The position numbers and the translations under genes were made by a program. Under the pieces are notes generated by a model. The model did not search any database, was not told where the DNA came from, and saw nothing but the letters and a program-made list of their open reading frames with translations. Positions 54,802 through 58,442 of a stretch of 64,000 nt of DNA are shown one piece after another. This stretch comes from Gemmatimonadaceae bacterium (GTDB taxonomy: Bacteria; Gemmatimonadota; Gemmatimonadetes; Gemmatimonadales; Gemmatimonadaceae): assembly GCA_035533755.1 (NCBI GenBank), contig DATLTC010000060.1, positions 1 to 64,000 of the forward strand, read 5' to 3'. Each line of letters starts with the position of its first letter. Position 1 is the stretch's first letter.

Positions 54802-55719
54802 ATGCTGCGCTACGTCGCCCGTCGCCTCGCGCTCGCCGTCCCCACGCTGTTCGGCGTGCTCGTGGTGGCGTTCCTGCTCCTCAACGTGGCGCCCGGCGAC
54901 CCGGTGACGGCGATGGTCGGCGAGCGCGCCGATCCGGCCACCGTGGCCAGACTGCGCGCCGAGCTCCACCTGGACGACCCGCTGCCGCTCCGCTTCGTCC
55001 GCTACGTGGACCAGGTGGCGCACGGCCAGCTCGGCCGGTCGTTCGTCACCGACCGCCCGATCACCGCCGACATCGCCGAGCGGTTTCCCAAGACGCTGGA
55101 GCTGGCGTTGGCGGCCATGCTCCTCGCCACCGTGTGCGGCATCTCGCTCGGCGTGCTGAGCGCGCGCCACCCGGGCGGCTGGATGGACCGCCTGGCGCTG
55201 GGCGTGGCGTACCTGGGCATATCGTTTCCCGTATACTGGGTGGGGTTGCTGCTCATCCTCGTGTTCGCGGTGGGACTCCGATGGCTCCCGCCGTCGGGGT
55301 ATGGAGGCCTCGAGTACCTGATCCTGCCGGCGCTGGCGCTCGGCATGCGGTCCATCGCCTTCCAGGCCCGCGTCACGCGATCGTCGATGCTCGACGCGCT
55401 GGGCGCCGACTTCACGCGCACCGCCCGCGCCAAGGGCGCGCGCGAATGGGTCGTGGTGCTGCGGCACGCGCTGCGCAACGCCCTCATTCCCGTGATCACC
55501 GTGGTCGGCCTCGACTTCGGCTCGTACCTCACGGGAAGCATCCTCACCGAGACCGTGTTCTCCTGGCCCGGCCTGGGGCGCTACGTGGTGAACGCCATCG
55601 CGCGCCGCGATCTTCCGGCCATCCAGGGCTCGGTGCTGTTTCTGAGCGCCGTGTTCGTGCTCGTGAACCTCGTGACCGACCTCGCCTACGCGAAGGCAGA
55701 TCCGCGAATCGCCTACTGA
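54802..55719 (+). CDS. Peptide-type ABC transporter permease, OppB/DppB family
   Basis: A 305-residue permease with six spans: MLRYVARRLALAVPTLFGVLVVAFLLLNVAPGDP at the N-terminus, EAA loop in TRTARAKGAREWVVVLRHALRNALIPV, and GSILTETVFSWPGLGRY. OppB and OppC form the channel; no oppC or ATPase follows. The only OppC in the window is at 12811, 41 kb away on the other strand. Confidence 0.94.
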   Translation: MLRYVARRLALAVPTLFGVLVVAFLLLNVAPGDPVTAMVGERADPATVARLRAELHLDDPLPLRFVRYVDQVAHGQLGRSFVTDRPITADIAERFPKTLELALAAMLLATVCGISLGVLSARHPGGWMDRLALGVAYLGISFPVYWVGLLLILVFAVGLRWLPPSGYGGLEYLILPALALGMRSIAFQARVTRSSMLDALGADFTRTARAKGAREWVVVLRHALRNALIPVITVVGLDFGSYLTGSILTETVFSWPGLGRYVVNAIARRDLPAIQGSVLFLSAVFVLVNLVTDLAYAKADPRIAY

Positions 55720-55727
55720 TGACTACC

Positions 55728-55815
55728 GGTAGGACGGTAGGACGGCAGGAGGGAAGGACGGATGCCTGCCGAACGCCGTTTACCCACTACCCCCCTACGG
55801 TCCTACCGTCCTACC
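55728..55815. repeat. Octamer tandem repeat with inverted copies, intergenic
   Basis: Four 8-base units, GGTAGGAC, GGTAGGAC, GGCAGGAG and GGAAGGAC (55728-55759), are followed by two inverted units GTCCTACC-GTCCTACC (55800-55815). The first two forward units and the inverted pair are a perfect 16-base inverted repeat that could form a long hairpin or stem in the RNA. A related array is at 58366. Confidence 0.85.
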
Positions 55816-55826
55816 CTCCCACTCCA

Positions 55827-56129
55827 ATGACTCTCTCCGAATACGAACGCTCCGCCGGCCGCACCATCAACCCGGCCCTGAGCGACCGCGACCGCCTCCT
55901 CGACGCCGCGGCCGGCCTGGCCGAAGAATCGGGCGAGGTGCTCGGCTTGGTGCGCAAGCATCTGATGCAGGGGCGCGGGCTGGACGCGGCGCGGTTGCGC
56001 GAGGAGTTGGGCGATGCGCTGTGGTGCCTGACCATCGCCGCGCAGAGCGCCGGGCTCACATTGGACGACGTGGCCCAGGCAAACGTGGCCAAGCTGACGC
56101 AGCGCCACCCCGGCGGATTTCAGGCCTGA
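55827..56129 (+). CDS. MazG-like NTP pyrophosphohydrolase
   Basis: A 100-residue all-alpha NTP-PPase. Mg-binding acidic residues are in the EESGE (AGLAEESGEVLGLVRKHL) and EELGD (LREELGDALWCL) motifs, typical of single-domain MazG-like housecleaning enzymes that hydrolyse non-canonical or toxic NTPs. The ATG at 55827 lies 12 bases after the inverted repeat, without a clear Shine-Dalgarno. Confidence 0.87.
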   Translation: MTLSEYERSAGRTINPALSDRDRLLDAAAGLAEESGEVLGLVRKHLMQGRGLDAARLREELGDALWCLTIAAQSAGLTLDDVAQANVAKLTQRHPGGFQA

Positions 56130-56192
56130 CCGGAGATCGGCCGCGCACCGCACGCTGCGTTTTCTCCGCGTGCCGTGCGCGGTCCGCTGTCC

Positions 56193-57215
56193 TTAGTCGT
56201 CCTTCTGCCCGAACACCGCCATGTTCGAACTGTGTCCCGGATTGACCTTCTTGTCCGGGTACACCCAGTGCACCGCCTGATTCACCGCGGTCGTCGCTTC
56301 GCCAAAGCCGGTGGCGATGAGCTTGAGCTTGCCGGGATAGGTCACCACGTCGCCGGCCGCGTACAGACCGGGCCGCCCCGTCTCCATCCGACTGTTCACG
56401 GAGATCTCGTCCTTCTCGATCTTCAACCCCCAGGTATTGATCGCACCCATGTCGCTCACGAAGCCGAGCATCGGCAACACGGCGTCGGCGGCCACCTGAT
56501 GCGTGGTCTTGGCTTTGATGTCCTTGAGGATGAGGTGCGTGAATCGCTCCCCGCCCGCATCGGGCACCAGGTCCGCCAGTTCGTGGAACGTGAGGAGCCC
56601 CGCCTTCCCCGCCGCCACCGCCTGCTGGAACTGGGCCACCGTGGCGTCGTGAGCGCGGAACCGATCGCTCCGGTGCACGATCGTCACGCTCGCGGCGCGG
56701 CCGAGCAGCTGCGTGCCCCAATCGAACGCCGAGTCGCCGCCGCCGATGATCACCACGTGGCGCCCCCGGAACCGCTCGGGATCGGTCACCACGTCGTGGA
56801 TGCCGCGACCGTACCAGGGCTCGGCGGCCGCCTGCGGCAGGCGGCGCGGCGCGAACGCGCCGATCCCAGCCGCGATGACGATGGCGCGTGTGGGAAAGCG
56901 GTCGGTCTCGGTCACGAGCACGAAGTGGCCGTCCTGCTCCTCGAGCCCTACCACGCGCTGGGAGTAGTGCATGGGCTGGGCGAACTGCGCGGCCTGCTCG
57001 CGCAACGCCCGCACCAGGTCCTTGGCCAGCACTCTCGGGAACCCTGCCACGTCGAAGATGTACTTCTCCGGGTAGAGCGCCGTCAGCTGGCCCCCGGGCT
57101 CGGCCAGGGCATCCACGATTTGCGCCGTGGCCCCGCGCATGCCAGCATAGAACAGCGCAAACAGTCCGGTGGGGCCGCCCCCAATGATCGTGATGTCGCG
57201 GATTTCGTGATTCAT
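56193..57215 (-). CDS. Ferredoxin/flavodoxin-NADP+ reductase, thioredoxin-reductase-like
   Basis: A 340-residue two-dinucleotide-domain flavoprotein: FAD site IIGGGPTGLFALFYAGMRG, NADPH site VVIIGGGDSAFDWGTQLLG and C-terminal ATGFGEATTAVNQAVHWVYPDKK. The redox CxxC of thioredoxin reductases is absent (DSAFDWG at that position), which points to a YumC-type ferredoxin-NADP reductase. The ATG at 57215 is chosen over an in-frame upstream start. Possible -10 TATAAC (57242-57247, minus). Confidence 0.9.
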   Translation of the reverse strand: MNHEIRDITIIGGGPTGLFALFYAGMRGATAQIVDALAEPGGQLTALYPEKYIFDVAGFPRVLAKDLVRALREQAAQFAQPMHYSQRVVGLEEQDGHFVLVTETDRFPTRAIVIAAGIGAFAPRRLPQAAAEPWYGRGIHDVVTDPERFRGRHVVIIGGGDSAFDWGTQLLGRAASVTIVHRSDRFRAHDATVAQFQQAVAAGKAGLLTFHELADLVPDAGGERFTHLILKDIKAKTTHQVAADAVLPMLGFVSDMGAINTWGLKIEKDEISVNSRMETGRPGLYAAGDVVTYPGKLKLIATGFGEATTAVNQAVHWVYPDKKVNPGHSSNMAVFGQKDD

Positions 57216-57331
57216 CCGATAACGTTCGCCTGACCTCAATCGTTATACAAGCAGCCGGCGGCGCGCCCCCCGCCGGCCCCGTCCCGCCAGCCGCGCACCC
57301 CGCGGCTCCGCCCGTCCCCAGCACAGCCCGC

Positions 57332-58363
57332 ATGCCAGAAAGTCTCGACTACCACGGCTCATTTCATCTCGTTCGCAAAGTGGCCGAAGGCGGGATGGCC
57401 ACGGTGTACGAAGCCGAACAACTCGGACCGTCGGGTTTTTCCAAGCGCATCGCGCTCAAGGTCATCCACCCCGATCTCGCGCAACGCCGCGAGTTCCTCC
57501 AGCTGTTCGTGGACGAGGCCAAGCTCTCGGCCAACCTGATGCACGGCAACATCGTGCAGATCTACCAGCTGGGCGAGGTGCGCGGGCAGTACTTCATCGC
57601 CATGGAGTACATCCAGGGCCCCACGCTCCGCAGCGTGATCGACCGGCACAACGAACTCGGCCGCCCGATCCCCGCCACGATGGTGGCGTACGTGGGCAGC
57701 CGGCTGTGCCGGGCCCTCGACTTCGCCCACAACGCCGTGGGCCCCGACGGCCGCCGGCTGGACGTCGTGCACCGCGACGTCTCGCCCGGCAACGTCATGA
57801 TCACCTGGGACGGCCACATCAAGCTCGGCGACTTCGGCATCGCCAAGGCCCGCACGTCCATCGACCCGGCGTCGGATCAGCACGTGCGCATGGGCAAGAA
57901 GCGCTACATGAGTCCGGAGCAGGTGCTGGGCACGCTCGTCGACGCGCGCAGCGATGTGTTCTCGCTGGGCGTGGTGCTGTACGAACTCCTCGCGCTCAGC
58001 CCGCTGTTTCACGAGGACAACACGGCCCTGTCGGTGGAAGAAGTGGTGCTGCGTCCCCTGCCCGACCTGCGGTCGAGGATCACCGACCTCGATCCCGATC
58101 TCGACGCGCTGCTCCAGCTCTCGCTGCAGCGCAACCCGGCGGAACGCGCCACGGCGGCTCAACTCGGATCGCTGCTCGATCAGTGGATCTCGGCCCAGCA
58201 CGACCGCGCCGGCGCGTCGCCCGACTGGCTGCAGAACCACCTGGCAGAGATCTTCCCGACCACCTTCGAAGCGCGCTTCGAGGCCGACCCCGTGGCGGTC
58301 CAGGCGGCGTCGGAGGTATTCAAGAAGAAGCGCGGATCGATCATCGCGCGGCTGTTCGGGTGA
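57332..58363 (+). CDS. Ser/Thr protein kinase (Hanks type)
   Basis: A 343-residue kinase with P-loop VAEGGMATVYEAEQ, VAIK-type Lys in IALKVIH, catalytic HRDVSPGN (D in HRD), metal-binding DFG (KLGDFGIAKA) and APE-like SPEQVLG. HRDVSPGN, not HRDLKPEN, recalls myxobacterial-type bacterial kinases. No membrane span is evident after the kinase domain; the C-terminal ~60 residues look helical, so it is probably cytoplasmic. It lies between the FNR gene (divergent) and the PduO-type gene. Confidence 0.94.
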   Translation: MPESLDYHGSFHLVRKVAEGGMATVYEAEQLGPSGFSKRIALKVIHPDLAQRREFLQLFVDEAKLSANLMHGNIVQIYQLGEVRGQYFIAMEYIQGPTLRSVIDRHNELGRPIPATMVAYVGSRLCRALDFAHNAVGPDGRRLDVVHRDVSPGNVMITWDGHIKLGDFGIAKARTSIDPASDQHVRMGKKRYMSPEQVLGTLVDARSDVFSLGVVLYELLALSPLFHEDNTALSVEEVVLRPLPDLRSRITDLDPDLDALLQLSLQRNPAERATAAQLGSLLDQWISAQHDRAGASPDWLQNHLAEIFPTTFEARFEADPVAVQAASEVFKKKRGSIIARLFG

Positions 58364-58365
58364 TC

Positions 58366-58389
58366 GGTAGAACGGTAGAACCGTAGGAC
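58366..58389. repeat. Octamer tandem repeat, second intergenic copy
   Basis: Three 8-base units, GGTAGAAC, GGTAGAAC and CGTAGGAC, start three bases after the kinase stop. They share period and consensus (nGTAGrAC) with the array at 55728, making this a dispersed short tandem repeat family. Confidence 0.8.
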
Positions 58390-58430
58390 GGCGACCACGC
58401 CGTCGCGGTCCTGCCCCATGCTTTTTTTGG

Positions 58431-58436
58431 TACATT
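58431..58436 (+). promoter_or_regulatory. Candidate -10 for the PduO-type gene
   Basis: TACATT lies six bases before the ATG at 58443, after a seven-base T-run. No good -35 is seen at 17 bases. If real, the transcript would be leaderless. Confidence 0.35.
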
Positions 58437-58442
58437 CCTGTC

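Follow-up and report, generated by a model that had tools for sequence, protein, structure and literature searches.

Two intergenic gaps in the window (the whole stretch of 64,000 nucleotides analysed here) each carry an array of closely similar octamers directly behind a stop codon, which raises the question of what kind of element these arrays belong to and what, among word, shape and position, is conserved in it. Both arrays had been noted in a preliminary description, and our re-reading of the sequence agrees as to their places: with at most two mismatches the octamer pattern has eight matches in the window against a shuffle mean of 0.33, and 0 of 100 shuffles reached eight. The array in the first gap is one arm of a larger, full element (Table 1), the outer right units of which, GTCCTACC GTCCTACC (55800–55815), pair perfectly with 55728–55743. 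This 16-base inverted repeat had been recognized, but its extent was understated, as further imperfect octamers are present inside the element. The full copy lies 8 bp behind the stop codon (TGA, 55717–55719) of the upstream gene, and there is no promoter space between it and the downstream gene, because the start codon of the latter follows only 11 bp on. The predicted hairpin of this copy has a folding energy of -49 kcal/mol on the + strand and -60.9 kcal/mol on the - strand (z -4.0 and -5.1, respectively). The second array starts 2 bp after the TGA (58361–58363) of the kinase gene; its three units were correctly described, whereas an inverted unit and a run of T residues further on had been overlooked. 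The region 58364–58440 folds at -30.4 kcal/mol (z -3.1), and a U tract after the GC-rich hairpin is present only here, being absent after the full copy. The two window arrays are one full copy and one half copy of the same family.

Table 1. Features of the window arrays and their flanking genes, and loci of related arrays elsewhere
Feature	Position	Strand	Basis or remark
Full element, 88 bp	55728–55815	-	Covariance-model match, 101 bits
Left array, four octamers GGTAGGAC GGTAGGAC GGCAGGAG GGAAGGAC	55728–55759	+	Sequence, genome-wide matches, covariance model
Core of full element	55760–55783	-	Reads GTAAACGGCGTTCGGCAGGCATCC on the - strand, the conserved asymmetric core of the family (alignment)
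Right (inverted) array	55784–55815	+	Sequence, predicted hairpin
Upstream gene, permease-like by eye	54802–55719	+	Own gene call
Downstream gene	55827–56129	+	Own gene call
Half array, three octamers GGTAGAAC GGTAGAAC CGTAGGAC	58366–58389	+	Sequence
Terminator-like hairpin: CGTAGGAC, inner stem, inverted unit GGTCCTGCC (58407–58415), T7 (58422–58428)	58382–58428	+	
G018 heptamer loci	L368:5033–5109, L368:7575–7659, L370:19198–19284, L265:4734–4811		
Bacteroidales array loci	L100, L106, L112, L118, L126, L133, L135		

That the arrays belong to a genome-wide repeat family had been proposed, and a search of the source genome (G000, 3.25 Mb) bears this out, with 62 exact matches to GTAGRACNGTAGRAC and none to the reversed control. 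Instead of the tandem array, as was then supposed, the unit that is replicated is a near-palindrome of about 88 bp, in which approximately four octamers of the GGTAGGAC type are followed by a conserved core and approximately four inverted octamers. Sites compared side by side give the layout GGTAGGAC GGTAGGAC GGTAGGGG GGTAGGAC - GGTAAACGGCGTTCCGCAGTCATCC - GTCCTACC CCCCTACC GTCCTACC GTCCTACC, and alignment of dispersed copies reveals a common, asymmetric core. A covariance model built from 23 copies gave 86 strand-hits in G000, and since copies mostly match on both strands this corresponds to slightly more than 40 copies; the mapped places comprise about 40 full copies and, in addition, 17 half arrays, several of the latter being followed, by eye, by an ordinary terminator-like hairpin. 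The large hairpin envisaged for the inverted form is predicted for those full copies that were folded, at -48 to -69 kcal/mol (z -3.9 to -8.8). Partner arms in G000 show no covariation in a permutation test, and selection for pairing is therefore not demonstrated in this genome. No Rfam family scored above its gathering score in ten sources holding elements, where only a tRNA was matched, and the open-licence literature yielded no paper with GTAGGACGGTAGGAC and none describing the element family.

Where these elements lie with respect to genes was determined with our own gene caller, trained on G000 and seeded on codon-position GC; the genomes are drafts, and sites were sampled partly under the guidance of G000. 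Nearly all placeable full copies in G000 (37/40) are intergenic, with 23 copies between genes of the same direction, 11 between convergent genes and 3 between divergent ones. In the median, the same-direction copies lie 5 bp from the stop upstream and 39 bp from the start downstream, and 17 of the 23 lie within 10 bp of a stop, where random placement in the gap would give 6.7 (P=3.2e-7). The suggested preference for sites just after stop codons thus held in this check. In G018, all 15 same-direction copies are found 0–10 bp behind a stop (2.8 expected, P=5.6e-14), and in G003 the four arrays examined are all at -4 to +5 bp from stops. Convergent gaps are favoured over divergent ones in both G000 and G018 (Fisher P=6.7e-4 and 2.8e-4, respectively), copies in G017 are distributed as six convergent, five tandem and no divergent, and the element in a convergent gap of G000 usually touches a stop codon at both of its ends. 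In G018 there is also a copy 9 bp behind a gene for tRNA-Leu, and this site without a stop codon points to transcript ends.

The arrays can also supply the stop codon itself. Among 62 stop-facing ends of full and half copies in G000, 24 have the stop of the gene inside the array (23 TAG and one TAA), at offsets, such as -5, -13, -21 and -29, that correspond to the octamer's own stop. Because the period of 8 is not a multiple of three, three units present TAG in all frames, and one of TAG, TGA and TAA is found in most units.

The design extends beyond the source genome, in part with other words. All four genomes of the genus contain the exact pattern GTAGRAC, as does G015; G057 and G058 show it weakly, and it is absent from 53 other relatives. 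The covariance model also matches G018, G011 and others, and these relatives within the family share the architecture and use a unit of their own, namely GGCAGGAG in G018 (451 matches of this type to a degenerate pattern), GACAGGAT in G017, GATAGGAG in G011 and GGTARGAC in G058. Even within the genus, G003 has its own genome-wide family, as GTGARGCS (GTGARGCSGTGARGC) has 116 matches there and 0–1 in nine other genomes. Of 395 genomes in the phylum, 11 have a pattern of the purine-first class, most of them belonging to the same family, with an almost empty control, and across the order the distribution is patchy. A test on G018, run with trimmed arms, showed that the 24-nt outer arms match their own partner better than the arms of other copies (0/5000 permutations), an effect that is weaker with 35-nt arms (299/5000); odd insertions in G018 are mirrored between the arms, for example at L271. 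With regard to the repeat period, 8 is the commonest extragenic tandem period in 400 kb of G002 (10/25, whole contig stretches), and tandem periods within genes of the same 400 kb are multiples of three. A period of 8 is not a law, as G018 has beside its octamers a heptamer family, GAGCGTG, with inverted arms. Heptamer arrays of both polarities (GAGCGTG/CACGCTC) were seen at several loci in 80 kb of unselected G018 sequence (Table 1), and 200 kb of G024 contained neither an octamer nor a heptamer family.

Orthologous gaps were aligned with those of three congeners, at about 80 % nucleotide identity. Where G000 has an array, the relative has a period-8 array in 13 cases and none in 7; where G000 lacks one, the relative has an array only once, at the anchor by which the locus was retrieved, and lacks it in 12 cases (pooled Fisher P=0.0014, the comparisons not being independent). 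The word in a shared slot often differs. At the end of one gene (L037:2972), G000 has GTAGGACG, G001 GTAGGAGG and G003 a hairpin of GTGAAGCC; G003 has TCACGGCC at L037:11053 and G001 CCGGCTCA at L037:13532, and the GTGARGCS unit of G003 occupies two of the same orthologous gaps as G000 arrays. Eight orthologous G000/G002 pairs have a likeness of 0.745, which is only slightly above the 0.711 of permuted pairs (P=0.007). G000 copies are 0.77–0.80 alike among themselves (median 0.80) as against 0.75 with their G002 orthologues, a difference that the G000-built model favours. Array length varies between orthologues, private unit variants occur within one array (L210/L244), and some slots are empty in congeners (L217). 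No target-site duplication is visible at the occupied/unoccupied pairs L217_3009, L217_6078 and L040, these being few sites at only about 80 % identity. Judged from slot sharing and pair likeness, the slots are inherited in part and the sequences in part homogenized within a genome.

Comparison with known systems places the family nearest to the dispersed extragenic palindromes known as REP, BIME and REPIN, which are GTAG- and CGTC-tagged, occur in tens to hundreds of copies and, as inverted pairs, form hairpins in single-stranded DNA or RNA (PMC3116915, PMC3733652). The octamer family is likewise dispersed, extragenic, hairpin-forming and located at gene ends, and its G000 unit contains GTAG, yet its arms are tandem octamer arrays, its anchoring at stop codons is strict and its unit differs between congeners. 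GTAG is also present in the units of G015 and G058 and is absent from those of G003, G017 and G018. The Y1_Tnp profile (PF01797) has no match in G000–G003, G015, G018, G011 or G057; it is present in G017 and G058, and 5 of 14 control genomes were positive. As this transposase is absent from the main carriers, and GTAG from other lineages, the family cannot be classed with the REPIN/RAYT system. Terminal inverted repeats, in the form of the inverted octamer arms, are a feature shared with MITEs.

Short intergenic tandem units comparable to TAACTGA repeats are also found in the cyanobacterial STRR heptamers. The TAACTGA heptamers themselves are direct repeats of Beggiatoaceae, Cyanobacteria and Bacteroidetes, located before start codons and hardly ever inverted (PMC4679880). 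Both kinds share with the octamer family short intergenic tandem units, a length that is not divisible by three, stops in all frames, many loci per genome and a patchy occurrence over lineages. The octamer family differs from them in its unit of 8 and its paired inverted arrays around a core, and from TAACTGA in following stop codons, where the heptamers immediately precede start codons, and in having units that differ between sister species; the period of 8 and the inverted arms in G000–G003 and G015 do not fit this type. Terminators without a U tract and bidirectional terminators have been described as hairpin clusters behind stop codons (PMC8355165). These too are stable hairpins a few bases from a stop codon that are frequent in convergent gaps, but the octamer family has a 32–36 bp stem of repeats common to dispersed loci and its copies often leave no promoter room before the next gene. 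A general terminator role fits poorly with several copies that lie only a few bases before a start codon, at 11 bp in the case of the window, and an ordinary intrinsic terminator is rejected for full copies without a T run that abut start codons. The context gives no support for a CRISPR, an integron attC site or a phage origin, and matches to the pattern in viral contigs are short arrays without the core.

We hypothesize that the family consists of REP-like, non-coding gene-end palindromes that act on mRNA 3' ends and that spread and are homogenized within genomes, a reading to which we would give about even chances. Our current working hypothesis is that RNA from either strand would form a long and, by prediction, very stable stem, which may shield the upstream mRNA against 3'–5' exonucleases at its 3' end and, where a T run follows, may help termination. 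Three units would halt translation in every frame, since 8 is not a multiple of three and most units contain a stop. At the DNA level, arrays would lengthen and shorten by slippage and a within-genome copying process would disperse and homogenize the copies, with the outcome that the gene-end slots, inherited in part, would hold a separate unit in each lineage. Four observations lead us to infer action on transcript 3' ends: placement tight against stop codons, the copy behind a tRNA gene, the excess in convergent gaps and, in G018, the match between partner arms. Of the three roles proposed in the preliminary description, RNA stabilization is in this sense the nearest, RNA-level action at gene ends being the best fit to the positions, and nucleoid binding finds no support in the present analysis. 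The all-frame stops suggest either a second, translational benefit or a mere filter that admits such elements into gene ends.

Insertions tolerated solely at gene ends would, however, yield much of the same position bias, and a purely selfish MITE- or REPIN-like element, spread by a transposase in trans and without function for the cell, is a serious possibility, if not the one we would expect to prove right. Its accumulation at gene ends would then reflect harm done by other insertions, or gene-end hairpins would be its target. The core common to dispersed copies, the patchy distribution in the order, the greater likeness of G000 copies to one another than to G002 orthologues and the missing copies at slots of some congeners are all consistent with such an element. 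The third role proposed earlier, that of a small mobile element, agrees with the same dispersal and core and with the lineage-specific families, but neither a transposase nor, at the few pairs compared, a target-site duplication was seen. Against a selfish element, too, the main carriers lack Y1_Tnp, no autonomous copy was seen, most of the congener slots compared are filled with the same or another octamer, and the G018 placement is tight for tolerance alone. It is quite improbable, in our view, that the arrays are neutral microsatellites, immobile and functionless, that arose by slippage past stop codons and became palindromes by template switching at hairpins. Differing array lengths between orthologues, private unit variants inside one array, the mirrored insertions of G018 and Bacteroidales arrays that lack inverted arms would suit this account, but independent slippage does not produce one unit and core at tens of loci and another unit in a congener, and the design recurs at the same slots with unrelated units. 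Least probable by far is that the arrays are binding sites for a DNA- or RNA-binding protein (a nucleoid protein, or one that is CsrA- or S1-like), the register of which is set by the 8-base spacing. The 8-base period persists across several unrelated units, the units of the purine-first families contain AGGA/GGA and similar proposals have been made for the TAACTGA heptamers (PMC4679880); a fixed specificity would nevertheless forbid the exchange of the unit between congeners, and the heptamer family of G018 argues against a constant period.

A sequence tag, together with its transposase, is what usually defines a REP-type repeat. What is conserved here is the place, directly behind the stop codon, and the shape, arrays in inverted pairs that repeat about every 8 bases, and the word is exchanged within one genus; the same genes across related species sometimes carry hairpins of equal design with quite different 8-base words. 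Explanations of bacterial intergenic repeats that rest on shape can thereby be told apart from those that rest on sequence, and the same gene with a different word in the same slot is a natural comparison for studying the function of gene-end hairpins. It is tempting to speculate, although we consider it rather unlikely, that position and architecture of such hairpins are passed on, with the unit word exchanged throughout the genome from one sister species to the next, a copying or conversion machinery overwriting palindromes at existing slots, coupled to selection for the hairpin and the all-frame stop.

A number of related arrangements were seen in passing. The octamer palindromes of G017 (L280–L296) seem to be part of a larger repeated block, and in convergent gaps of that genome a stop lies at 27–80 bp on one side and at about 223–245 bp on the other. 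In G025, arrays of the octamer CACAGAGG stand in inverted orientation at a distance of about 140 bp from each other (L363:1472–1495 and 1631–1654), and the G015 orthologue of one slot (L077:580–1520) contains GTACTCGG-like short-period repeats and an array of the 13-mer AAAGAAAACGTCG. A metagenome-assembled genome (MAG) of the same phylum, RYN_360, shows another palindrome design, in which an inverted block of repeats resembling GGTTTGTCGGTTT comes after GTAGGAC arrays (L139, L157, L165). Long intergenic octamer arrays of GTAGGAC/GTAAGAC, mostly without an inverted arm, are present in the Bacteroidales MAGs KA21 and Md513_bin82, of an unrelated phylum (Table 1); homology with these is not claimed, as they are without core and inverted arms. 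In Pseudomonas strains (L163, L124, L179), GTAGGAC octamer arrays directly adjoin a head that is REP-like (GTAGGAGCTG...GCTGCGATCTTTTGAT) and look as though they had grown out of the GTAG end of the REP.
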